This document shows, one piece after another, positions 8,379 through 21,332 of a stretch of DNA of 43,671 bases. A program made the translations under genes and the position numbers. The notes below the pieces were generated by a model, which was not told where the DNA came from, did no database searches, and was given only the letters and a program-made list of their open reading frames with translations. The DNA comes from Acidobacteriota bacterium (GTDB lineage Bacteria > Acidobacteriota > Aminicenantia > Aminicenantales > Aminicenantaceae): NCBI GenBank assembly GCA_030669585.1, contig DAOVDI010000009.1:1-43671 (forward strand), written 5' to 3'. The first letter of the stretch is position 1, and each line of letters starts with the position of its first letter.

Positions 8379-9557
8379 TCAGGCGCTCAAGATCTCATTT
8401 GCATGAATAAGATTCTCTCTGACCTTCAAGCCATATGGACAGGCGTCAGAACAGATTCCATCACAGCTTACACACAAGTAGGGCTTTATTTGATCATCAA
8501 TTTCTGCATAATACCGAATTGCCTCTTTTTCCATTTTATAATCTTCAAAATACATGGAATAACGAAGTACATCATTGATGGGGACATTGTTCGGGCAGGC
8601 GTTCAGGCATTCTTCGCATCCAACTCTACAGTACTGGTCATCAACAAGATGCCGGTACTTGGCTAAAACATTCAGGTCAGCCCGGTCGAAAGAAAGCCCT
8701 GATGCAGCAACATATTCCTCGACATGGGAGTAACTGCTCATAGTTGTTATACAGGTATCGATATTTGAATTACTTAAAACCCATCGGATGGCCGCCTGGG
8801 GATAGCTGGTTTCTCTCCCGATAAATGATTTCAGATTTCCGTGTTTTCCGCCCGCAAAAATCTTCATGGCGATAACACCTATGCCCTTTTTCTTTACCTG
8901 TTCCAGCAGAGGTTCAATCTCATTCTGCATATGGCTGTAGATCACTAGGACAACCTGAGTGAAATCCGAGTCCAGAGCCTGTTTTAAAGTAACAGGCGCG
9001 TTATGTGTTGAAAATCCGGTGAATCGTATCTTTCCATCCTTTTTCAACTTAGAATAGGCTGAAACAAGTTCTTCATTATGCAGCAATTTAAGGTCATTAA
9101 TGCCATGGACCAGGGCGATATCCACATAATCTGTTTTCATTCGTTTTAAGCTGTTTTCCATTCGATTAATAATGTTTTGTCTTGTGATCTTGGTTCTGGA
9201 AGAATATCCATGCTTGGTAGTGATTATTACTTTATCCCGTATTCCGCTCAGGGCCTGACCGATATATCTTTCGCTGTTTGTGTTCATATAGCCTTCAGCA
9301 GTATCAAAATAGTTAATTCCAAGATCAAAAGCATAACGCATTACATTGGGCTCAAAAAAAGAGATCGCCCCGCAGCTTACATCCGAAACCTTGAGTCCGG
9401 TTTTCCCTAGGATATTGTATTTTTTTATCTTGATATCTTTAGTTTCCACACGGTTGTTCAATTTTATTGAGTCTGCCCTCATAGTTTTGGTCAAGCCCAT
9501 TCCAAAAAGTCCTGAAGTGAAAGCTGTTATAAAATTACGTCTGCTCCATTTTGCCAT
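8379..9557 (-). CDS. Tat-exported aldo/keto reductase with C-terminal 4Fe-4S ferredoxin domain
   Basis: The start is placed at ATG 9557, the second in frame, because GGAG lies 6 nt upstream. This gives MAKWSRRNFITAF, whose SRRNFI is a good twin-arginine signal, so the folded protein is probably exported. Residues about 50-310 form an aldo/keto reductase barrel: YNILGKTGLKVSDVSCG, GINYFDTAEGYMN, DKVIITTKHG, DYVDIALVHG and GKIRFTGFSTHN. The C-terminal about 75 residues carry two cysteine sets, CRVGCEECLNACP and CVSCDGICSDACP, typical of bacterial ferredoxin-type 4Fe-4S binding. Such fusions are redox enzymes of largely unknown substrate, some acting on sugars. It lies directly downstream of a LolA-like gene (15 bp from the chosen start). 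Confidence 0.9.
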   Translation of the reverse strand: MAKWSRRNFITAFTSGLFGMGLTKTMRADSIKLNNRVETKDIKIKKYNILGKTGLKVSDVSCGAISFFEPNVMRYAFDLGINYFDTAEGYMNTNSERYIGQALSGIRDKVIITTKHGYSSRTKITRQNIINRMENSLKRMKTDYVDIALVHGINDLKLLHNEELVSAYSKLKKDGKIRFTGFSTHNAPVTLKQALDSDFTQVVLVIYSHMQNEIEPLLEQVKKKGIGVIAMKIFAGGKHGNLKSFIGRETSYPQAAIRWVLSNSNIDTCITTMSSYSHVEEYVAASGLSFDRADLNVLAKYRHLVDDQYCRVGCEECLNACPNNVPINDVLRYSMYFEDYKMEKEAIRYYAEIDDQIKPYLCVSCDGICSDACPYGLKVRENLIHANEILSA

Positions 9558-9572
9558 AATTATCTCCATAAA

Positions 9573-10625
9573 TTATTTTTGCTTTAATTTAATTGGCTGA
9601 AAAAGCTCCAATTTTTCCGCTAGATCTTTAAACTCAGTAGAATACATGCTGATAATATAGTTTTCATCCCTGCGATTTGGCATTAATATAACTGCCCCCT
9701 GCTTGATGGAACTTCTTGGAGGAGAGCTGTCATAAAATGTTATATCGTACTCCCTGTCTTTAATGCTTATTCTCAGTGAGTCATTGTTCATGAAACCAGC
9801 GCTCTGAATATTTGCCAATGTCCAGTTGGTTTCCAGGATCAACGTATTACGACGCAAAGAATGATCAATAATGTTTCCGCCCAATATCCCGGTACTGATC
9901 TCCACCTCTCCCATATTCAGATCCAGGTTGGCAAAAAAGTCTTCATTCAAAGGAAGATTGAATTTAACCTCTTGTATCTCATACATAACACCGCGTGTTC
10001 CCACTTGAGATGTAAACCAGGATGAAAGCAGTCTTACTCCGTTGACTTCATGATAAGGCCCAAAATCGTGATTGATCTCATATGTGCCCTGGCCAGGGTC
10101 ATATCCTTTAAAAACCATCCTTTTTATTAGGAATTCGTCTGGGTCTAGATAAAACTCTACTATTAATTTTCCCTGTTCAGTCGTCAGAACATGGTGACTT
10201 TTTATACCAAAACGCTTCAATCCGGCATACTCGAGATTATCCTCAAAATTTATAAGCGTGAAGAGCCCGCTGCGCAGTAATGCCTGTGCCTGATAAGTCG
10301 AAGTCACCAGGGGTTTCAATTCTGTGATGTTGTTGAAGCTGTTTTTCCTGGCTCCATTTTTATCAATGATAATACTTTTTGTAATGACAGGAGCTGTGCC
10401 TGAAGTGATCTTCATCCGGCCGTCCTTGGCCAGGTAATAGGTGCGCTGTCCTGTAGAAAAAGAAAAATTTTCAAATGATTTAAGTTTTTCCAAATCACCG
10501 GCAGCTTGAATATTTTTGGCAACAATCTCTTTGACCGTCAACTCCTTTTTTGCGTATGAAACGTCATAAAAAAAACCCATCATCAGGATCAAAACTAGAC
10601 TGAAAATACAATTACGAGGCTTCAT
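9573..10625 (-). CDS. Exported LolA/LppX-like fold protein of unknown function
   Basis: About 350 aa with a signal peptide (cleavage near ...DVSYA). It begins with KELTVKEIVAKNIQAAGDLEKLKSF, a segment typical of outer-membrane lipoprotein-sorting-like proteins. It continues with beta-rich repeats (GKLIVEFYLDPDEFLIKRMV, YEINHDFGPYHEVNGVRLLS) expected of the half-barrel LolA-like fold. It is longer than LolA (about 200 aa), with an extra C-terminal domain of about 120 residues. ATG 10625 is preferred over 10637 because GGAGG precedes it. It sits immediately upstream of the Fe-S aldo/keto reductase gene and is probably co-transcribed, so a shared periplasmic role is likely but undefined. Confidence 0.75.
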   Translation of the reverse strand: MKPRNCIFSLVLILMMGFFYDVSYAKKELTVKEIVAKNIQAAGDLEKLKSFENFSFSTGQRTYYLAKDGRMKITSGTAPVITKSIIIDKNGARKNSFNNITELKPLVTSTYQAQALLRSGLFTLINFEDNLEYAGLKRFGIKSHHVLTTEQGKLIVEFYLDPDEFLIKRMVFKGYDPGQGTYEINHDFGPYHEVNGVRLLSSWFTSQVGTRGVMYEIQEVKFNLPLNEDFFANLDLNMGEVEISTGILGGNIIDHSLRRNTLILETNWTLANIQSAGFMNNDSLRISIKDREYDITFYDSSPPRSSIKQGAVILMPNRRDENYIISMYSTEFKDLAEKLELFQPIKLKQK

Positions 10626-10734
10626 TTCTCCCTCCATAGCATAAGACTATTCTAAAGAAATAAACTACCATGTGCAAGGAGTGAATGCTGTTTAAAGTGC
10701 TTGTTCTTACAGGGGCTGTTGCTTCCGGTTTATT

Positions 10735-13098
10735 TCAATTTATAATCTCATCCAGAACTCTATCCCAGGTATAAATTTTCAGCACATTTTCACGAGCAAG
10801 TTTTTTCATCTGATTGTATCTGACGAGACAGAAATCCTTCATGTCTTTGATAAACATGATCTTTCTAATCCAATCTGAAAGATTACCTGCCTCGGCAATA
10901 ATGCCAGTTTTATGGTTGATAATGATTTCTTGTGGTCCGCCTCGATCCGAAACGATTGCTGGTAATCCGCAGGATTGTGCTTCAAGTATCACCATGCCAA
11001 AAGTATCTGCAACACTTGGGAAGACAAACAGATCAGCAGCAGAATAGATTTTATGAAGAAACTTGTGATCCACAACCCCGGTGAAAAATATATTTTCCAT
11101 TTCTTTGGTTTTTATTCTGAGATCATTGAAATAAGGTCCGCTGCCCGTAATAATCAGATTTATATCCTTTGTTTTTTTTGAAAGATGACTGAAAACCTCG
11201 ATCAGAAAATCTAGTTCCTTGTCTTTAGAAATTCTTCCAGAATAAAGAAGATTGAACCCATTTTTGAATCCTAATTTATACTTTTCTTCTGCTTCTGTCT
11301 TATTCGGTGAAAACAAGTCAGTGTCAATACCTCTGGGAAAGATTTTCATTTTAGATGATTTAATACCTCGGTTTTCAAGGATTCGGATGTACTCCTTGGA
11401 AGAAACCAGGATTTCATCCTGCAGAGAATAAAACGATTTGACATAACTCCCTAAAAAATTTGCCATCGATTTATCTTTAGTAATTTTAAGTCCGTGGAGC
11501 TTAAAATCAGTGTGATAAATTCCAACACTTTTAATATTCAAAAGTTTTGCTGCCATTAGCCCCACTAATCCTATTGGTCCTGGAGTGGAAATTATTATCT
11601 CGTCAGGCTTATAATCATATATGGATTCAAGGGATTTAAGCACAGAAGGAATTTTTAAGGTGTACTGTTCATAACCCGGCAGTTGAAAAGAAAATATAAT
11701 GGGAAGATCTAAGGTGTTTTGAGGGTATTCTTTCAAATCCCTTTGAGAATCAAATGAACCAGCAACAACCAGATCCGATTTTTTCTGAGCAGCCAATTGT
11801 CTGATCTTTCTGAGTGTAATGGACACTCCATTCAAATCATTCAGAGTATCAGAAAACCAAAGGATTCTTTTATTATTGTTTTCGGTCTCAGGTAAATATT
11901 TTTCTTTTAATTCCGATAAAAGTTTTCGGCTGTCGGACATGATTTTGATAGTGGAAAAAAATGGAATTGAGAGAAAGATTCCAGGGATGGATGCGGAAAG
12001 ATTTGTAATTATTTTTATAAAATTTCCTTTTTGGATATCCTTTTCTATCGATTGGAGAAGTATTTTAAAAAATTCATCCGCAATTTCAGCAATTTTCTGA
12101 TATGCCAAATTAAGTTTATTTTCTAAAGGAGCGGTTTTTAATCGTTCCATATCATGAATAATACCATGAAGTAGCATATATATCTTATTTCCGTTCTTTT
12201 GGCCGGCAGCCTTGAGTTTCTTCAATGCTATCTTGTTTTTAAGGTCGAGGTTTTTCTCGCCAAAAAAGTAATCCATTAATGTATCCAAAAAGGAAGTGGA
12301 TATCGATTCCTGTTTATTCTTTGAGAAGTCATAGGCGATCTTGTAAAACATAAAGGCTAAAGATTGATAATCATTATGCCGACCGGAAGGATAAGATTCC
12401 TTTGCTCTTATTTTTGCCAGAAAACTGTCAATACTATCCGCTTCGGTTTCAGTGAAAGTTCGTCCGATAAACATCCCGGCATGGTCATCCGATCCACCTG
12501 TAAATCCTTTTTTCCAAGATTCATGGCTGAATGGTTCTATCCGGTATTTGGAGTAGAGATCTTCAATATGGACCGGTGTAAGATTAGAAAGGATTTTCAT
12601 CCAGATCAGGTTGTTGATCTCATTTCTTCCCCCATTGATTCCTTCAAACACATCAAAAAGAAGAATCAATTTCTCAAGATGTTCAAAAGACAGTTTGCCA
12701 TTAACAGAAAAAGTAGCATGGGCAACAGAATGGGTCAATTTTTCTCTGCGCAGATAATGCCGAAGATCATATATATCTTTTCTAATGGATTGGATCTCAT
12801 CAAATTGTTTTTCATTCAATCCATACACCAGCACATGAATTTTGCATTGGTTTTCAGGAAAGTAAGTTGTCACCTCAACTCCAGTGAATGCCCGCTCTGG
12901 ATAGAGTTCTTTGAGACTTAAAGAAGCATCGATCTTGTTGTGATCTGTTACAGTGACAAAAGTCATTCCCTTCTCTATGGATGTTTTATAAATGTATTCC
13001 GGTTCCGTGTAGGATTCACTTGCGCCCAGTCGTTGTAAAAACCATTCAGAAGGATGATTTGAATATTTAGAATGCAGATGAAGATCTGCTTTTGCCAT
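10735..13098 (-). CDS. PHP-domain / GT4 glycosyltransferase fusion protein
   Basis: A 787-aa two-enzyme fusion. Residues 1 to about 230 form a PHP metallo-phosphoesterase domain: ADLHLHSKYS, TVTDHNKID, FTGVEVTTYF, CKIHVLVYGL and TGGSDDHAGM supply the metal ligands. About 270-400 is helical and unassigned. About 400-787 is a GT-B glycosyltransferase of family GT4: an acceptor half with GVSITLRKIRQLA, then LLYSGRISKDKELDFLIEVF. The sugar-nucleotide half has FVFPSVADTFGMVILEAQS and GLPAIVSDRGGPQEI. No membrane segment is evident. The gene is divergent from phoB-phoR, and phased Pho-box-like repeats lie between them. A TATTAT -10 candidate (13124-13119) is 17 nt beyond the last repeat on this strand. 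A role in phosphate-limited glycolipid synthesis is my inference. Confidence 0.88.
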   Translation of the reverse strand: MAKADLHLHSKYSNHPSEWFLQRLGASESYTEPEYIYKTSIEKGMTFVTVTDHNKIDASLSLKELYPERAFTGVEVTTYFPENQCKIHVLVYGLNEKQFDEIQSIRKDIYDLRHYLRREKLTHSVAHATFSVNGKLSFEHLEKLILLFDVFEGINGGRNEINNLIWMKILSNLTPVHIEDLYSKYRIEPFSHESWKKGFTGGSDDHAGMFIGRTFTETEADSIDSFLAKIRAKESYPSGRHNDYQSLAFMFYKIAYDFSKNKQESISTSFLDTLMDYFFGEKNLDLKNKIALKKLKAAGQKNGNKIYMLLHGIIHDMERLKTAPLENKLNLAYQKIAEIADEFFKILLQSIEKDIQKGNFIKIITNLSASIPGIFLSIPFFSTIKIMSDSRKLLSELKEKYLPETENNNKRILWFSDTLNDLNGVSITLRKIRQLAAQKKSDLVVAGSFDSQRDLKEYPQNTLDLPIIFSFQLPGYEQYTLKIPSVLKSLESIYDYKPDEIIISTPGPIGLVGLMAAKLLNIKSVGIYHTDFKLHGLKITKDKSMANFLGSYVKSFYSLQDEILVSSKEYIRILENRGIKSSKMKIFPRGIDTDLFSPNKTEAEEKYKLGFKNGFNLLYSGRISKDKELDFLIEVFSHLSKKTKDINLIITGSGPYFNDLRIKTKEMENIFFTGVVDHKFLHKIYSAADLFVFPSVADTFGMVILEAQSCGLPAIVSDRGGPQEIIINHKTGIIAEAGNLSDWIRKIMFIKDMKDFCLVRYNQMKKLARENVLKIYTWDRVLDEIIN

Positions 13099-13118
13099 AA
13101 TATTTCTCCTTTATCTTG

Positions 13119-13141: not shown

Positions 13142-13181
13142 TTAAGTTTGAATTAAGAAAATCTTAATTTTTAATTAATTT
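13142..13181. promoter_or_regulatory. Four 11-bp-phased TTAAN repeats (tandem Pho-box-like site)
   Basis: TTAAG, TTAAG, TTAAT and TTAAT begin at 13142, 13153, 13164 and 13175, exactly 11 bp apart. PhoB/PhoP family regulators bind direct repeats of this period (for example TTAACA units in Bacillus). The block lies between phoB and the PHP-glycosyltransferase gene. Because TTAA is its own complement, the phasing reads equally on both strands. A similar block precedes the pst operon porin. Confidence 0.65.
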
Positions 13182-13265: not shown

Positions 13266-13946
13266 GTGAACAAACTTATCTATGTTGTTGATGATGAACC
13301 AGATATTCTGGAACTTCTATCTCTACATTTGAAAAAAGCCGGGTTTAAGGTTCAGTGTTTTGAGAACGCCGTTCGTTTTATGGCCCAACTCAAGATCCAG
13401 AAGCCCGATCTTATTATCCTTGATCTGATGCTTCCGGATGAAGATGGTCTGGACGTATGCAAAAAGCTTAAAAGAGATGAGTTTTATCTATCCATCCCTA
13501 TCATCATGTTGACAGCCAAAGGGGAGGAAATCGACAAGATCCTTGGGCTGGAGTTGGGAGCCGATGATTACATCACCAAACCTTTCTCTGTGAAGGAACT
13601 TGTTGCCCGGGTTAAAGCGGTGATGAGAAGGCCAAAAGCAATATCCTCCCGGGAAAAAATAGAGATCCGCAATTTAGTGATCATAGATCCGGAAAAACAT
13701 GAGGTCATCGTGGAAGGCAAAAAAATTGATTTGACTTCCACTGAATTCCGGATACTCAAGCTGCTCGCGTCAAAAAAAGGATGGGTGTTTTCAAGAGAGC
13801 ATATCCTGGATCAGCTCTGGGGACAGGAAAAATATGTCGTGGACCGGACAGTGGATGTGCACATCAAACATTTGAGAGAAAAGTTGGGCCGGGCGGCCAT
13901 TCTCATAAAAAATATCAGAGGAGTGGGATATAAACTGGAAGAATGA
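13266..13946 (+). CDS. phoB: PhoB-like response regulator (OmpR family)
   Basis: A 226-aa two-domain regulator that would activate phosphate-starvation genes when phosphorylated by the downstream PhoR. The receiver domain (1-120) has the acidic pair VVDDEP, phospho-acceptor Asp53 in LIILDLMLPDEDG, Thr83 in MLTAKGEE, and Lys105 in GADDYITKPF. The C-terminal winged helix (about 130-226) has LTSTEFRILKLLA, SREHILDQLWG, VDRTVDVHIKHLREKLG and [13 protein letters not shown]. The start is GTG; the ribosome binding site is weak. It overlaps phoR by 4 bp (ATGA). Assignment to PhoB rather than another OmpR-type regulator rests on the adjacent PhoR-type kinase and the pst-phoU operon just downstream. 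Confidence 0.92.
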   Translation: MNKLIYVVDDEPDILELLSLHLKKAGFKVQCFENAVRFMAQLKIQKPDLIILDLMLPDEDGLDVCKKLKRDEFYLSIPIIMLTAKGEEIDKILGLELGADDYITKPFSVKELVARVKAVMRRPKAISSREKIEIRNLVIIDPEKHEVIVEGKKIDLTSTEFRILKLLASKKGWVFSREHILDQLWGQEKYVVDRTVDVHIKHLREKLGRAAILIKNIRGVGYKLEE

Positions 13947-15679
13947 GAAAATCTATTTTTGTTAAAGTCTTCGGAGGGCATTTTCTTGTAATCATTTTAC
14001 TGGTTATGCTCATACTTCTATTTTCTTTTCATGAAATAAAACGGTTTTATATTGCCAACTTGGAAAAAGAACTGTCTCATACCGGAGAAGCTCTGAAATA
14101 CCAAGTCCTCTTCTATCTTGAAGAAAATAGAATAGAAGAACTGCAGGATTTTATGGAAAAATTCGGGAAAAAGATAGAAACGCGGTTAACATTGATAAAC
14201 AGAGAGGGAAGAGTTCTGGCTGATTCTGAAAAGAACCCGGAAATGATGGAGAATCACAAAGACAGGCCCGAGATCTTCAGGGCATACTCCGGTCAGATAG
14301 GACGGTCGCTTCGATTCAGCCGCACCCTTAAAACGGATATGCTTTATATAGGGCTGCCCATTATAAAGGACGGCCGGGTTTCTCATGTTATTCGCCTCAG
14401 TCTCTATCTTCACGACATCAAACATTTAATAGCTATCTTGAGAGGGAAGATCACACAGATTGCCCTGGCCATTCTGCTGTGTGTTTTTCTTTTTTCTTTT
14501 TTTCTATCACGCTCTTTTTCAAAGCCTGTCAAAGAACTTCGAGAAGCCTCTCAAAAAATTGCGGCAGGGGATTTTAAAGTGAGAGTTTTCACCAGAAAAA
14601 AGGGAGAGTTTTCCGATCTGGCGGAAAGCTTCAATATCATGACGGAGAAGATCCAATCCCTATTTCTGGAAACCAGTCGTAAAAAGGAAGAACTTGAAGG
14701 AATTCTTAGTTCTATTGAAGAAGGGCTTTTTGCTCTGGATGAGAATAACCGGATTCTTTTTGCCAATGACAGCTTCAAGAAAATTTCAGGACAAGATGAT
14801 ATCAATGGAAAATTCTATTGGGAGATTCTGCGTGAAGCAAATTTTCGAGAAATGGTCGAGTCTTTCCGTAAAGAAGGGAAAAACATTTCAGAGGAGCTGG
14901 ACTTGAATGAAAGAGTTTTCCTATGTAATCTGGCTTCTTTACACAGAGGAAAAGAAATCGTTGTTACACTGCATGATATATCAGAATTCAAAACGCTTGA
15001 AAAGATCAAACGGGATTTAATTATCAATGCCTCACACGAATTAAGGACGCCTCTGACTGCCATTAAAGGATTCATCGAGACTTTGGAAGAAGAGATCGAT
15101 GAAAAAAACGAACATTATTTAAACATAATCAAGCGGAATACGGACAGGCTCATCAATATTGTTAAAGATCTGATGCAGCTGTCAGAACTGGAAGAAAAGG
15201 GGACTGATCTCGAGATCGAAACTGTGGATCTGGAAAAACTCCTAGAAAACATAATGAAGATCTTTGAAGAAAGGATCAAAGCGAAAAGTCTGGAATTTGA
15301 GATCATAGCCGAAAAGGATTTTTCTCCTGTCCAAGCTGATCTTTTCAAGATTGAACAGATGTTTATCAACATTGTGGACAATGCCGTTAAATATTCAGAA
15401 GACGGAAAAATTATCATAACTTTGAAGCAGGAAAACGACCAGGCTGTTGTTCAGGTCTCAGATACAGGCATTGGTATAGCAGAAGAACACCAACCGCGTA
15501 TATTCGAGCGGTTTTATATGACGGATAAATCCCGCTCAAGAAAGCTGGGCGGCACTGGACTTGGACTTTCCATCGTGAAACATATCGTCAAACTCCACAA
15601 AGGGGATATCTCCGTAGAAAGCCGGCTGGGGCAGGGGACCACATTTACCATTAAGCTTCCTTTCCAACAAAAACTGTAA
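13943..15679 (+). CDS. phoR: PhoR-like membrane sensor histidine kinase
   Basis: A 578-aa sensor kinase. TM1 (about 13-30) and TM2 (about 168-190) enclose a periplasmic domain of about 135 residues. HAMP follows at about 190-245, then a PAS domain at about 248-345 ([18 protein letters not shown]). The HisKA domain has His365 in [16 protein letters not shown]. The ATPase domain has the N box [16 protein letters not shown]1 [20 protein letters not shown] and G2 [12 protein letters not shown]. The sizeable periplasmic region differs from enteric PhoR, which has almost none, but is common in other phyla. Phosphate status would be relayed through the Pst transporter and PhoU encoded downstream. 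A short hairpin follows the stop. Confidence 0.92.
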
Positions 15680-15698: not shown

Positions 15699-15863
15699 GT
15701 GCTTCCATTTCAAATCAACCAAATTTTTCTACTTACTTATCCTGGGTTATTCACAGGCCGATATGTGAGGCGCGGCCAAAGGCAAAAAAGTCTATAGAAA
15801 TCCATAGAAGTCATCGAAGCCGAAGAAAGCCCAAAGCAGCTTAGCCCAAAGTCATTTAATTTA

Positions 15864-15944
15864 CGTCATTCCCGTTCCCCGATCGGAGTCGGGGACAGGG
15901 TTCACGGGAATCCAGACGCCGTTCCCGCGAAAACGGGAATCCAG
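15864..15944. repeat. Palindromic repeat cluster with GGAATCCAG units
   Basis: Two GGGAATCCAG motifs end at about 15915 and 15944. Each closes a hairpin: ATTCCCG...CGGGAAT enclosing TTCCCCGA...TCGGGGA-like arms, and TTCCCGCGAAAACGGGAA. The pattern is like the dRS3-type 'ATTCCC-N8-GGGAAT' dispersed repeats described in Neisseria and similar repeats elsewhere. Related arms occur at 16-48 and 178-195. Confidence 0.75.
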
Positions 15945-15959
15945 ATAGATGAGACAACC

Positions 15960-16010: not shown

Positions 16011-16050
16011 TTAACCAAAAATTAACACTGTATTTATTTGCATTTAACAT
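16011..16050 (+). promoter_or_regulatory. 11-bp-phased TTAAC repeats (Pho-box-like) upstream of the porin-pst operon
   Basis: TTAAC occurs at 16011, 16022 and 16044, with a degenerate TTATT at 16033, so four positions 11 bp apart of which three match. This equals the phasing upstream of phoB and fits a pair of PhoB/PhoP-type boxes. The -10 element is not obvious; TAACAT (16045-16050) is one candidate. Confidence 0.7.
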
Positions 16051-16116: not shown

Positions 16117-17130
16117 ATGAAAAAACTGACAATCGTTTTGACTGCAGCCGTTCTTTTGTTCGGTCTTTCAATCCTGACCCATGCTCAGGGATCGTTCAAA
16201 GGCTATATGTTCGCTGATTATTACACAGTTCTGGATCACCACGATTCAGACGTCAAGGGTCAGCATGGTTTCTGGATGCGAAGAGTTTATTTGACCTTCA
16301 ACAGCAAGTTGACTGAAAAGATCAAGATGAGACTACGTCTGGAAATGGCAAACAGCAGTTTTTCTAAGGACAAACTGACAGCCATCGTTAAAGATGCCTA
16401 TCTGAGCACAAAACTGGGCGGGCATGAATTAAAAGCAGGAATAATGTCTCCTCCGACATTCAGCAACAATGTTGAGCCTATCTGGGGATATCGTGCTCTG
16501 GAAAAAACACCTCTGGATCTTTTCAAATTCGCCTCCTCCAGAGATTTTGGAATCGGTTTAAAAGGAACTCTGGACAGTGCTAAAAAAGTCACCTACAGCG
16601 TGATGTACGGCAATGGTTCTTCCAACAAGGGAGAGACAAATGCCGGCAAAAGAGTCTATGGAGCCTTAGCGATCAAGCCAGCCAAAGGTTTGACTTTTGA
16701 GGTATATGCGGATTACGAGCACAGGTCGGAAACAGACCAGCGGTATGTCTACCAGGGATTTGCGGCCTACGAAGGAAACTGGGGCCGTATCGGAGTGCTT
16801 TATGCCAACCAGGCTTTCCAGAACGGAACAACCTATAACCTCGGGCTCTTTTCCGCTTTTGCCGTGATCAATGCCTCCAGCAAAGTGGACATCATTGGGC
16901 GTGTGGATACAGCTGTTTCAGATGATTGGGAATCAAAATTCAAGGGATCAGGGATTTCTTATATCCCCTTTGCCAACTATGTCAAACCCACTCTGGTCAT
17001 TCTTGGTGTCAGCTTTGAAGCGGCCAAGAACATCTGGCTTATCCCTAATATCAAATATACGACTTATTCAGGGAGTGATGCAAAAAATGATATTTATGCC
17101 AACATCACTCTCTGGTTTAAATTCAAGTAA
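16117..17130 (+). CDS. Outer-membrane porin, phosphate-selective (OprO/OprP-like)
   Basis: A 337-aa beta-barrel protein with a signal peptide (MKKLTIVLTAAVLLFGLSIL, cleavage after THAQ). Strand motifs include FKGYMFADYYTVLDHH, FWMRRVYLTFNSKLTEKIKM, AYLSTKLGGHELKAGI and FEVYADYEHRSETDQ. The chain ends on an aromatic strand (ANITLWFKFK). The RRVYL/ELKAGI pattern and SRDFGIGLKG resemble porin O/P family proteins. Gene context supports a phosphate-uptake role: it is the first gene of the pst operon and is preceded by phased Pho-box-like repeats. AGGAG lies 6 nt before the ATG. The pstS start is 11 bp after its stop. Selectivity for phosphate is inferred from context, not read from residues. Confidence 0.85.
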   Translation: MKKLTIVLTAAVLLFGLSILTHAQGSFKGYMFADYYTVLDHHDSDVKGQHGFWMRRVYLTFNSKLTEKIKMRLRLEMANSSFSKDKLTAIVKDAYLSTKLGGHELKAGIMSPPTFSNNVEPIWGYRALEKTPLDLFKFASSRDFGIGLKGTLDSAKKVTYSVMYGNGSSNKGETNAGKRVYGALAIKPAKGLTFEVYADYEHRSETDQRYVYQGFAAYEGNWGRIGVLYANQAFQNGTTYNLGLFSAFAVINASSKVDIIGRVDTAVSDDWESKFKGSGISYIPFANYVKPTLVILGVSFEAAKNIWLIPNIKYTTYSGSDAKNDIYANITLWFKFK

Positions 17131-17141
17131 GGAGATTTATA

Positions 17142-18047
17142 ATGAAAGGAAAAAAATTATTTTTGATCGGAACACTCTTGTTAGGTTTTATCTTCGCGAG
17201 TGGAACAGTATATTCCGCCAAAAGAATGATCCAGATCAAAGGTTCTGACACCATTGTCAATCTGGTTCAGATCCTGTCGGAAGAGTTCATGGCCATAAAT
17301 CCTGGAAAAGCCATTGCAGTTATGGGCGGCGGATCAGGAACAGGAATTGCAGCGCTGATCAACGGCACCTGCGATATTGCCAATCATTCCCGGCCCATGA
17401 AAAGCAAAGAAAAAAAACTTTGTGAGGAAAAGAGAGTGGTTCCCCGGACCTTTATCATCGCTATTGATGGATTAAGCGTGATCGTCCACAAGGACAACCC
17501 TCTCAAAGAAATGATCATGGAAAAGATCGGGGCTATCTACAGAGGTGATATCACAAATTGGAAGGAAGTGGGCGGACCGGATATGCCCATATCACTCTAT
17601 GGACGTCAATCTAACTCCGGCACCTTTGTATTCTTTCAGGAACATGTACTTGGCAAACAGGATTACTCTCCTCAAATGAAAAGAATGAATGGAAATGCCC
17701 AGATCGTGGAAGGCGTGATCCAAGATAAAGCCGGTATCGGATATGTGGGAGTGGGTTACGTCATAGACATAAAAACCAGGAAGGTCAGAAACGACCTGAC
17801 GGTTCTCAATGTGGCAAAGAACGCCGAGTCCAAAGCCTATTCTCCAATGGATAAAGCAGCCGTTGATTCCGGCGACTATCCGGTTGCCCGTCCTCTTTTT
17901 CAGTCCACCAATGGAAAGCCCAAAGGTAACGTAGCTTTGTTCATCAAGTTCATCAACAGCCCTGAAGGCCAGAAAATTGTTGAAAGAGAAGGTTTTTTCC
18001 CAATCGGAAAAGATATTATTGCTGACAATTTCAAGAATATGAAATGA
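17142..18047 (+). CDS. pstS: Phosphate ABC transporter substrate-binding protein PstS
   Basis: A 301-aa periplasmic phosphate-binding protein with a signal peptide (about 1-25, ending VYSA). The phosphate-binding loops are typical: IKGSDTIVNLVQILSEEF, AVMGGGSGTGIAALINGTCD, IANHSRPMKSKEKK and LYGRQSNSGTFVFFQEH. The closing DKAGIGYVGVGYV and SPEGQKIVEREGFFPIGKD blocks follow. It delivers phosphate to PstCA. AGGAG precedes the ATG. A strong hairpin with a T-run lies between its stop and pstC, which would let pstS be made in excess over the membrane components, as in many pst operons. Confidence 0.96.
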   Translation: MKGKKLFLIGTLLLGFIFASGTVYSAKRMIQIKGSDTIVNLVQILSEEFMAINPGKAIAVMGGGSGTGIAALINGTCDIANHSRPMKSKEKKLCEEKRVVPRTFIIAIDGLSVIVHKDNPLKEMIMEKIGAIYRGDITNWKEVGGPDMPISLYGRQSNSGTFVFFQEHVLGKQDYSPQMKRMNGNAQIVEGVIQDKAGIGYVGVGYVIDIKTRKVRNDLTVLNVAKNAESKAYSPMDKAAVDSGDYPVARPLFQSTNGKPKGNVALFIKFINSPEGQKIVEREGFFPIGKDIIADNFKNMK

Positions 18048-18063: not shown

Positions 18064-18099
18064 GGCAGGATCCTAAAAAGATCCTGCCATGTTTTTTTT
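18064..18099 (+). terminator. Intrinsic terminator or attenuator between pstS and pstC
   Basis: GGCAGGATC (18064-18072) pairs perfectly with GATCCTGCC (18080-18088) across the loop CTAAAAA. An 8-nt T-run follows (18092-18099). It lies 16 bp after the pstS stop and 41 bp before pstC, so partial termination would raise PstS relative to PstCAB. Confidence 0.85.
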
Positions 18100-18139
18100 A
18101 TGGAAAATATCATATCCCGTACTAGATAATAGATTAGAC

Positions 18140-19033
18140 ATGAAAAAGAAAAAATTTTCAGATCTCAAAGAATCCGTCATTAAAGCTTTTTTTTTTACCA
18201 ATGGGATCCTGACTGTAATGATCCTGGCCAGCATATTCGCACTGCTTCTGTTCACATCCATTCCTGCATTCCGGGAGATAGATCTGAAAGAATTTTTCAC
18301 AAGCCACCAGTGGAATCCCACATCTCCGGTCAAGGAGCATTATGGGATCCTGTCCATGGTGGCCAGCACATTTATGGTTAGCTTGGGAGCCATGATCATT
18401 GCCATCCCCATCGGGATCGGAACTGCGTCCTATCTGTCCGATGTGGCACACTGGAAAGTCAGAGAAATTGTAAAACCTATTGTTGAGATCCTGGCAGGGA
18501 TTCCTTCTGTTGTTATCGGATTTCTGGGAATTATATTGTTCGGGCCCATTCTAGCCAAGATCTTTGGCACAAGCAATGGCCTGAATGCAATCAATGGTTC
18601 GCTGCTACTTGCAATAATGGCGCTTCCCACTATCGTCAGTATTTCGGAGGACTCTTTAAGTGCAGTGCCCAAAACTTATTCAGACGCCTCACTGGCCCTG
18701 GGAGCGAACAGGTGGCAAACTCTTGTGCGTGTCAAACTCCCTGCTTCTTTATCCGGTATTATCGCCGCAGTAATGCTGGGCATGGGAAGGGCCATCGGTG
18801 AGACCATGACCGTGCTCATGGCCACAGGAAATGCACCTGCATTCCCTAGAGGTTTTCTCAGCTCCATTCGCACGATGACTGCTACCATTGCTATTGAACT
18901 GGGTGAAGTTCCTTATTATTCGACCCATTATTACGCTCTTTTTGCCGTAGGATTTGTCCTTTTTCTGATTACATTTATAGTTAATCTGCTGTCTGATGTA
19001 ATTTTGAACAAGTATCAGGAAAGAGAACAGTGA
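18140..19033 (+). CDS. pstC: Phosphate ABC transporter permease PstC
   Basis: The inner-membrane permease subunit, 297 aa from ATG 18140. This start is preferred because the upstream in-frame ATG at 18089 lies inside the terminator hairpin and T-run. Six transmembrane segments are apparent. Family signatures are AIPIGIGTASYLSDVAHWKVR, IVEILAGIPSVVIGFLGI and the ABC-interacting EAA-like loop ASLALGANRWQTLVRVKLPA, followed by LGMGRAIGETMTVLMATGN. It pairs with PstA to form the phosphate channel. Its end overlaps the pstA start (GTGA), indicating translational coupling. Confidence 0.95.
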   Translation: MKKKKFSDLKESVIKAFFFTNGILTVMILASIFALLLFTSIPAFREIDLKEFFTSHQWNPTSPVKEHYGILSMVASTFMVSLGAMIIAIPIGIGTASYLSDVAHWKVREIVKPIVEILAGIPSVVIGFLGIILFGPILAKIFGTSNGLNAINGSLLLAIMALPTIVSISEDSLSAVPKTYSDASLALGANRWQTLVRVKLPASLSGIIAAVMLGMGRAIGETMTVLMATGNAPAFPRGFLSSIRTMTATIAIELGEVPYYSTHYYALFAVGFVLFLITFIVNLLSDVILNKYQEREQ

Positions 19034-19881
19034 GAAAAAAAATAATTGAATTTATTGGTTTTTTTTCGTTGAGAGTGTGTCTGTATATTGTTTTAGCTTT
19101 CCTTTTTATCTTCCTTTATGACATCGGAAGCAAAGGAGGCGGGGTGATCAGTTGGGAATTTGTCAGCCAGGCACCAAGGCGAGGAATGACAGAAGGAGGA
19201 ATCTTTCCGGCTATCATGGGAACGTTTTTTGTCACCATGGTAACCGCATTATTGGCTGTGCCCATGGGAATGTTTTCCGCCATCTATTTAAATGAATATG
19301 CCAATCAGACGCGGATAACCCGGATCATACGTTTGTCCATACGCAATCTTTCCGGTGTTCCGTCCATTGTATATGGGTTGTTTGGTGTAATTCTGTTTGT
19401 AAATGTTCTCAAATTTGGCACATCCATTCTTTCTGCTGGTCTGACTTTGGGTCTTTTGACTCTCCCATGGACCACAACAGCCAGCGAAGAAGCCCTGAAA
19501 ACTGTCCCGAATTCTTACAGGGAAGGAGCACTGGCTTTAGGGGCAACCAAATGGCAGTCCATTCAGACCAATGTGCTCCCCAATGCCCTCCCGGGAATGC
19601 TGACCGGAACTGTGCTGGGGCTGGCCCGTGCTGCCGGAGAAACAGCTCCCATCATGTTTACCGGGGCTGCTTTTTTTCTTCCTTTCCTTCCCAGATCATT
19701 AAGCGACCAATTTATGGCCTTGCCGTATCACCTGTATGTTATGGCCACACAACATCACGCCATCTCACAGGTTAGGCCTTTGGCTTATGGAACGGCCCTT
19801 ATCTTGATTTTGCTTGTTCTGGGAATGAATATGTCGGTTGTTATCCTCCGCTACAGATTGAGAAAAAAAAGGAGAGCCTAG
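19030..19881 (+). CDS. pstA: Phosphate ABC transporter permease PstA
   Basis: The second inner-membrane permease subunit, 283 aa, starting at GTG 19030, which overlaps the pstC stop. Six membrane segments are visible. Signatures are [38 protein letters not shown], the EAA-like coupling loop [20 protein letters not shown], and [20 protein letters not shown]. Overlap with pstC and a 1-nt gap to pstB show a tightly coupled set. Length and motif order are normal for PstA. Confidence 0.95.
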
Positions 19882-19882
19882 T

Positions 19883-20644
19883 ATGAAGAACCAGCCAAAA
19901 ATCGAAGCACGAAATGTTAATTTTTATTACGGTTCCCAAATTGCATTGAAGAACATCAATATAGCCTGCGAAGAGAATAAGGTGACAGCATTGATAGGCC
20001 CGTCCGGCTGTGGAAAGTCAACATTCATCCGTACACTTAACCGGATGAACGATGTGATTCCCGGGATAAAAATAGAAGGTGATATCCTGTTGGAAGGCGA
20101 AAACATCTACCATCCCAAGGTCGATGTAGCAGTTTTAAGAAAAAGAGTCGGAATGGTGTTTCAGAAACCCAATCCTTTTCCAAAATCCATATTTAACAAT
20201 ATTGCTTACGGCCTCAGGATTAACGGGATGAGGGATAAAAAAAAGATCGAAATGATCGTGGAAAAAAGTTTGAAAGAAGCAGCGCTTTGGGACGAAATAA
20301 AAGACCGGATGGACGAGAATGCTTTTTCCCTCTCAGGAGGACAGCAGCAGAGGCTCTGTATTGCCAGAGCCCTTGCTATTAAACCCGAAGTTATTCTTTT
20401 TGACGAGCCTTGCTCAGCTATCGATCCTGTGGCTACAGCCAAGATTGAGGAACTGATCCACCAACTGAAGGAACATTACACTGTTGTTATCGTCACCCAC
20501 AACATGCAGCAGGCTGCGCGCGTATCTGATTTTACGGCTTTTATGATGCTGGGTGAGATAGTGGAATATAATAAAACAGATAAAATATTTACAAATCCAT
20601 CCAATAAATTAACGGAAGATTATATCACCGGTCGATTTGGCTAA
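19883..20644 (+). CDS. pstB: Phosphate ABC transporter ATPase PstB
   Basis: The ATP-hydrolysing subunit of the phosphate importer, 253 aa. Walker A is [19 protein letters not shown], which is characteristic of PstB. The Q-loop is in [20 protein letters not shown]. The ABC signature is [16 protein letters not shown], Walker B is [13 protein letters not shown], and the switch histidine is in [19 protein letters not shown]. It acts on the cytoplasmic face of PstCA and also takes part in signalling to PhoR. phoU follows 28 bp later. Confidence 0.97.
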
Positions 20645-20672: not shown

Positions 20673-21332
20673 ATGGAAAGGCATCTTGACGAAGAATTAC
20701 AGGAGTTGAAAGAAAAACTTTTAATGATGGCCTCTATGGCGGAGAAAAACATTTCCCTATCAATCCAATGTCTCAAGGAGCGCAAAGAGGAGATTGCGCA
20801 GGACGTTTATAAAAATGAAGAAACCATCAACTTTCTGGATATAGAAATAGATCAGATCTGTATGAAGCTTCTGGCCCTGCACCAGCCCATGGCTGTGGAC
20901 CTCAGATATATCACTTCCGCTCTGAAGATTTCCAGTGAACTGGAACGGATTGCGGATCAAGCGGTAAACATAACCGATAGGTCCTTAGTCCTGATCAATT
21001 CACTCCCCTTTAAACCTTTGATCGATATCCCGCGCATGGCGTCCATGGCACAGAGCATGCTCAAGGATTCCATTGAAAGTTTTATAAAAAAAGATGCTGA
21101 CCTGGCCCGGAATGTTTGCTGGAGAGACGATGATATGGACGAAATGAATGATCAGATCTTCAGGGTATTGTTGACCTATATGATGCAAGAACCGGCTTCC
21201 ATCAAAAGAGCTGTAGGTCTCATGCTAATCGGACGTCATCTGGAAAGGATCGCGGACCATTCAACCAATATCAGTGAAGAAGTGATCTATTATGTCAAAG
21301 GAAAATCCATCAAGCATCATTATACAGATTAG
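20673..21332 (+). CDS. phoU: Phosphate signalling protein PhoU
   Basis: A 219-aa all-helical protein of two PhoU repeats. The metal-binding-type signatures are in repeat 1 (PMAVDLRYITSALKISSELERI-like, followed by ADQAVNITDR) and repeat 2 (RAVGLMLIGRHLERIADHST, then NISEEVIYYVKG). It links Pst transport to inhibition of PhoR-PhoB signalling when phosphate is ample. A strong AGGAGG precedes the ATG. Its stop overlaps the stop of the convergent dsrC by 4 bp, and no terminator is seen between them. Confidence 0.96.
   Translation: MERHLDEELQELKEKLLMMASMAEKNISLSIQCLKERKEEIAQDVYKNEETINFLDIEIDQICMKLLALHQPMAVDLRYITSALKISSELERIADQAVNITDRSLVLINSLPFKPLIDIPRMASMAQSMLKDSIESFIKKDADLARNVCWRDDDMDEMNDQIFRVLLTYMMQEPASIKRAVGLMLIGRHLERIADHSTNISEEVIYYVKGKSIKHHYTD

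Follow-up and report, generated by a model that had tools for sequence, protein, structure and literature searches.

A PHP–GT4 fusion protein appears to be a widespread one-protein version of the two-enzyme pathway from phospholipids to sugar lipids

The PlcP–Agt pathway, in which phosphate-starved bacteria convert phospholipids to sugar lipids by two separate enzymes, is known in Agrobacterium, SAR11, Phaeobacter and Pseudomonas aeruginosa (PA3219-PA3218/PA0842). A comparable change of lipids is described for Desulfovibrio (Oleidesulfovibrio) alaskensis G20: according to the published report (PMC5193443), more than 90% of its phospholipids are replaced by MGDG, GADG and ornithine lipids under phosphate limitation, and a transposon mutant in Dde_3613, called an 'Agt homolog', is then without any glycolipid, both MGDG and GADG being lost. 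The locus described here, from an Acidobacteriota genome, encodes a PHP–GT4 fusion protein that resembles the PlcP–Agt pathway in joining a Pho-controlled metallo-phosphoesterase (the control being predicted here from a Pho box) to an Agt-like GT4 glycosyltransferase with its donor residues, and in having genes for phosphorus-free lipids as neighbours. It differs in being a single polypeptide, in having a PHP-type phosphoesterase with a fold unrelated to that of the calcineurin-like PlcP, and in its exclusion from PlcP-bearing genomes of the Desulfovibrionales. It represents a new, single-chain form of the known pathway, and appears to be a widespread one.

In the window (the whole 43,671-nucleotide stretch of DNA that was analysed) the fusion gene occupies positions 10735..13098 of the minus strand. 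It starts with ATG, has a ribosome-binding site, AAGGAG, recognised from the sequence at 13106..13111 (minus strand), and is an intact reading frame of 787 amino acids. Residues 1-240 (12379..13098, minus) are the PHP metallo-phosphoesterase domain, residues 241-405 (11884..12378, minus) a helical linker and residues 406-787 (10738..11883, minus) the GT4 glycosyltransferase domain. The predicted structure of the full protein has an overall pLDDT of 88.7. The fusion of a PHP domain to a GT4 domain had been proposed in the initial annotation, and the intact frame, the Pfam matches, the AF2 model and the conserved ligands all bear it out. The linker contains a conserved hydrophobic motif, SxPGIFLSxPFF, in helix 361-388, which is a possible membrane contact. 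On the 3' side of the gene lie 9573-10637 (minus), encoding an exported protein without a known family, and then 8379-9569 (minus), encoding a Tat-type aldo/keto reductase with a ferredoxin domain; the two may form one operon with the fusion gene.

The window protein on its own is too divergent to match PF02811, PHP_C being its sole PHP-type match in Pfam (1e-4); PF02811 was matched by 33 of 51 homologous N-terminal domains (best 1.3e-7). An AF2 model of residues 1-241 had a pLDDT of 95, and all 12 of its PDB matches at E<=0.001 were PHP structures, among them RNase AM, TM0559, BAD_1165, Cv1693 and PolC. The metal ligands of the superfamily (HxH, DH, E, H, H, DxH) are present as H7, H9, D52, H53, E75, H88, H127, D204 and H206; each is preserved in 57-60 of the 60 homologues, and this domain is better conserved across them than any other region of the fusion protein. 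Position 14 varies: about two thirds of the family have N or D there, and the window protein has N; aspartate is the usual residue in most PHP enzymes. Two family members carry E75Q. As the fold is that of PHP and not the calcineurin-like metallophosphatase fold (PF00149) of the PlcP family, the domain could act in the manner of PlcP, yet it is not a PlcP. The RNase AM/TrpH-type PHP phosphoesterases (7ug9, 9etk, 2yb1, 2anu, 3o0f) have the fold and metal ligands in common with it, but they show about 15% identity, have no GT domain and use nucleotides or RNA as substrates instead of lipids. A search of the open-access literature found no paper linking a PHP domain with glycolipids or phosphate starvation, which does not prove that there is none.

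The C-terminal half matched Pfam Glycos_transf_1 (6e-35) and Glyco_transf_4 (3e-13), and its model matched BshA, MshA, PimB' and other GT4 structures with a TM of about 0.8 of the target; against viral structures only generic GT4 matches were obtained. It has the GT-B fold, the GPGxxG-type loop, the R/K donor pair and the (E/D)x7E motif expected of a GT4 enzyme. Its best match by E-value in a plasmid collection was a gene of P. aeruginosa that immediately follows cerN-plcH-plcR and that, from this position, we take to be PA0842 on the PAO1 map. PA0842 is Agt2, a glucuronosyl-diacylglycerol synthase (PMC8528852). When Agt2 was searched in 20 Desulfovibrionales genomes, PHP-GT4 was the top match in every genome (in one case in two pieces), making the fusion the closest to Agt among the GT4 proteins there. 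The window GT domain (3e-36) and Agt2 (2e-39) also have their nearest curated model, NF053787, in common. With the GlcN-PG synthase and MGlcDAG synthase GT4 models (NF053787, NF049988), however, the window domain scores far under the equivalog cut-offs (125 of 480 bits). As identity of the GT half is low, at about 26% to Agt2 and 25% to Agt1, and no PHP-GT4 fusion matched Agt1 at 1e-40, it is best described as a sister group and not as part of the Agt clade. The residues shown by mutation to be required in the SAR11 enzyme GTcp (PMC8231724) align by spacing with G424, G507, G510, R622, K627, T699, F700, G701 and E706, which are conserved in 56-60 of 60 PHP-GT4 homologues. By these comparisons the GT4 half, with its Agt-like donor pocket, is Agt-like, and it would use diacylglycerol as acceptor. 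Two related arrangements were seen elsewhere. A 742-residue glycosyltransferase encoded on a Roseobacter plasmid (L178:2951-5179) has a MGlcDAG-synthase-like domain (3e-49) with an unrelated N-terminal half, and lies after an LPG_synthase_TM gene; in Acinetobacter baumannii (L179:2818-4692) the gene of an Agt2-like glycosyltransferase (39% to Agt2) precedes one for a PAP2 phosphatase, perhaps a further pairing of a diacylglycerol supplier with a glycosyltransferase.

The fusion gene is divergent from genes for a phoB-like response regulator (13266..13946, plus; TIGR02154, 6e-76) and a phoR/PnpS-like histidine kinase (13943..15679, plus). Past these come a phosphate-selective porin O/P-like gene (16117..17130, plus; 1.3e-5), pstS (17142..18047), pstC (18089..19033), pstA (19030..19881), pstB (19883..20644) and phoU (20673..21332), all on the plus strand. 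In the gap between phoR and the porin gene, 15860-15945 holds several copies of the inverted repeat ACGGGAATCCAGA / TCATTCCCGTT, like a dispersed palindromic element. The promoter region common to the fusion gene and phoB contains a Pho-box-like array of four TTAA units with an 11-bp period (13142..13178), and a second such array (16011..16047) lies upstream of the porin and pst genes. Compared with shuffles, the first reaches significance only with a period of 11 (p=0.003). The four-unit 11-bp pattern, with at most one mismatch, occurs at exactly these two places in the 2.48-Mb genome, and a matrix built from the pst array scored the PHP-GT4 promoter highest among all other sites of the window. 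Since the array is restricted to the PHP-GT4/phoB and pst promoters, it is the strongest regulatory evidence: the 11-bp direct-repeat Pho box typical of a Pho regulon promoter is present, and it would be bound by PhoB. The arrangement is as the initial annotation had given it, with divergence from phoBR, a nearby pst operon and Pho-box-like repeats between. Among homologues, the classical CTGTCAY-N4-CTGTCAY box (at least 12 of 14 positions) was found upstream of 8 of 96, against 0.45 in shuffles, and in several Desulfovibrionales (L187, L188, L189) such repeats lie in the promoter between divergent olsF and PHP-GT4 genes. General 11-bp periodicity was not distinctive, period 12 scoring like period 11 over the 96 upstream regions.

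PHP-GT4 was found in one of 40 relatives of the window's own group (54% identical) and in three other genomes among 297 of the phylum. This rarity within the group suggests that the gene reached the window lineage by horizontal movement. Relatives occur on at least 169 GTDB contigs, of which the best 80 loci were analysed; these best 80 come from Spirochaetota, Desulfuromonadales, Omnitrophota, Zixibacteria and Verrucomicrobiota/Kiritimatiellota, and also from Planctomycetes, Gammaproteobacteria, Nitrospirota and others. In the Desulfovibrionales, 121 of 223 genomes carry the fusion. The two domains travel together among homologues; what looked like separate PHP and GT halves in some Desulfovibrionales (G344, G376-G380, G472) resembled frameshifts, insertions or contig breaks and were rejected.

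Genes of pst, phoU, phoBR, phn or phosphorus-free-lipid type were present in the flanks of 26 of the 80 loci and of none of 40 controls (p=8e-6), the controls being 18-kb stretches from Desulfovibrionales only. Phosphorus-free-lipid genes were counted as OlsF or OlsB-type acyltransferases and BtaA-type DUF3419, with OlsF and BtaA assigned from NCBIfam NF052615 and Pfam PF11899 and from the btaA-btaB-like gene order seen with rhizobial homologues. The remaining 54 loci, many on short contigs, had no listed Pho or lipid neighbour. In a Firestonebacteria locus (L053) the order is phoR-phoB-PHP-GT4-pstSCAB-phoU without interruption, another (L014) reads pstA-pstB-phoU-PHP-GT4, and some loci adjoin btaA. 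The fusion is carried by 90 of the 105 Desulfovibrionales genomes with OlsF (odds ratio 17, kinship not corrected), and in six genomes of the order it is directly adjacent to olsF (<1 kb), where 0.1 would be expected. Polysaccharide-type neighbours occur in some loci, as nucleotide-sugar genes (Arenicella-like) or as a glycosyltransferase with LPG_synthase_TM (four loci); a polysaccharide cluster was rejected as the dominant context of the 80. The neighbourhoods of homologues, suggested as a check in the initial annotation, thus point to phosphate uptake and phosphorus-free lipids and not mainly to polysaccharide clusters.

Three other kinds of neighbour recurred. A family of about 570-680 residues without a Pfam or NCBIfam match adjoins PHP-GT4 in 10 of the 80 loci (L036:53-1831 (-), L015, L017, L021, L058, L059, L062, L078, L080, L088); its GFNAxTxDDxAH motif allows the guess that it is a TIM-barrel sugar enzyme. 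A radical SAM enzyme, possibly for lipid or sugar modification, lies directly 3' of PHP-GT4 in 9 of the 80 loci (e.g. L072:10433-11746) and at L186:10229-11848. A protein combining a PhoU domain with an APH-type kinase domain is encoded near PHP-GT4 in several phyla (L012:903-2549 (-), L013, L071, L082, L089, L190, L192).

The distribution of PlcP was examined using P. aeruginosa PlcP, from the plcP-agt1 pair, as query. It was present in three of the 223 Desulfovibrionales genomes, which are related to one another and are all without PHP-GT4. In these three the gene order is olsF, plcP and a gene with an MGDG_synth domain (L255:6829-11073, L256:5003-9400, L257), the two complete copies of the latter also having a GT28 C-terminal domain. 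On the strength of these clusters, olsF adjoins either PHP-GT4 or PlcP with a separate glycosyltransferase. The pair appears to be the functional equivalent of PHP-GT4 in the same genomic place, but with two genes, GT28 and PlcP, instead of one combining GT4 and PHP. No PlcP match below 1e-20 was found in 39 diverse PHP-GT4 genomes, that of the window included; weak PlcP-like phosphoesterases (1e-11 to 1e-19) were seen in seven of the 39. A standalone Agt occurs in six of the 223 Desulfovibrionales genomes, all six with PHP-GT4 and none with PlcP. This pattern is what would be expected if the PHP domain does the job of PlcP, although it is not proof.

Dde_3613 is very probably a member of the PHP-GT4 family. 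This assignment is made from the gene content of its order, where the fusion (121 of 223 genomes) is far commoner than a standalone Agt (6 of 223) and was the best match of Agt2 in all 20 genomes tested. The best match to the solved CutC protein of D. alaskensis among the Desulfovibrionales genomes was at most 83% identical, which places that species outside the set searched, as it is outside the 80 loci. PHP-GT fusions had been thought uncharacterised when the locus was annotated. That is probably wrong in part, given the glycolipid-free Dde_3613 mutant. The accessible part of that report (PMC5193443) gives no domain make-up for Dde_3613 and mentions no PHP domain or function.

A lipid-remodelling role for PHP-GT4 is well supported, and the Pho-controlled glycolipid function first suggested for it gains strong support from the neighbourhoods, the Agt-like GT4 half and the absence of PlcP. 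The protein is probably a single-chain enzyme of the Pho regulon that replaces phospholipid by glycolipid, the PHP domain hydrolysing the lipid and the GT4 domain adding the sugar. Under phosphate starvation PhoB would bind the 11-bp array and switch on the gene. The PHP domain would then produce diacylglycerol, together with phosphate or a phospho-head group, from phosphatidic acid or, acting like a phospholipase C, from a phospholipid. The conserved hydrophobic helix of the linker may anchor the protein to the inner membrane face. The GT4 domain would glycosylate this diacylglycerol with glucose, galactose or glucuronic acid taken from a UDP-sugar, a step backed by its Agt2 homology and by the phenotype of the mutant in Dde_3613, a probable family member. 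With both reactions in one chain, PHP-GT4 would replace separate PlcP and Agt proteins. Of the earlier proposal that one polypeptide removes the head group and adds a sugar, the sugar and glycolipid part is strongly supported; the PHP step has indirect support from the exclusion of PlcP and from the place beside olsF.

It is this PHP step that the most serious rival disputes. The protein might be a Pho-controlled glycolipid synthase whose PHP domain hydrolyses the UDP/UMP by-product, or some other small phosphate, instead of lipid; it would thereby pull the GT4 reaction forward and salvage phosphate, with diacylglycerol coming from ordinary phosphatidate phosphatases. The GT4 half and the Pho control fit this equally well, and the most similar PHP structures belong to phosphoesterases that act on nucleotides or RNA (RNase AM; Cv1693 with AMP). 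UDP, however, is a pyrophosphate, unlike the monoesters and diesters that PHP enzymes usually hydrolyse. The exclusion of PlcP and the common place beside olsF favour a diacylglycerol supplier, as does adjacency to btaA, BtaA being another consumer of diacylglycerol. We consider hydrolysis of a by-product unlikely, and supply of diacylglycerol the best inference for the PHP domain.

Two further readings carry much less weight. It is improbable that the fusion decorates an envelope glycan (a lipid-linked polysaccharide or the LPS core), with Pho control incidental to one lineage: the GT4 family is large, its acceptors are many, and some loci do have polysaccharide-type neighbours, but Pho and phosphorus-free-lipid neighbours recur over many phyla, Agt2 has the fusion as its best match, and the Dde_3613 phenotype, if that protein is a member, is one of glycolipid loss. 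It is hardly credible that the PHP domain lacks catalytic activity and serves as a structural or regulatory module, leaving GT4 alone active. The N14 found in many members in place of the usual aspartate, and E75Q in two, could be read in this way; the other metal ligands each occur in 57-60 of the 60 homologues, and no part of the protein is better conserved than this domain.

The chances seem about even that the PHP domain represents a class of lipid phosphohydrolase or phospholipase C that had gone unrecognised and is unrelated to PlcP, fused to a diacylglycerol glycosyltransferase so that phospholipid is channelled to glycolipid by one protein in many bacterial phyla without PlcP. To our knowledge, PHP-GT4 would then be the first member of the PHP superfamily with a lipid substrate. 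The source of diacylglycerol would be explained for many anaerobes that exchange phospholipids for glycolipids without PlcP, and the gene would be a marker of phosphate-stress lipid remodelling in sulfate reducers, spirochaetes, Desulfuromonadales, Verrucomicrobiota, Planctomycetes and others, organisms that metagenome surveys based on PlcP would have overlooked.
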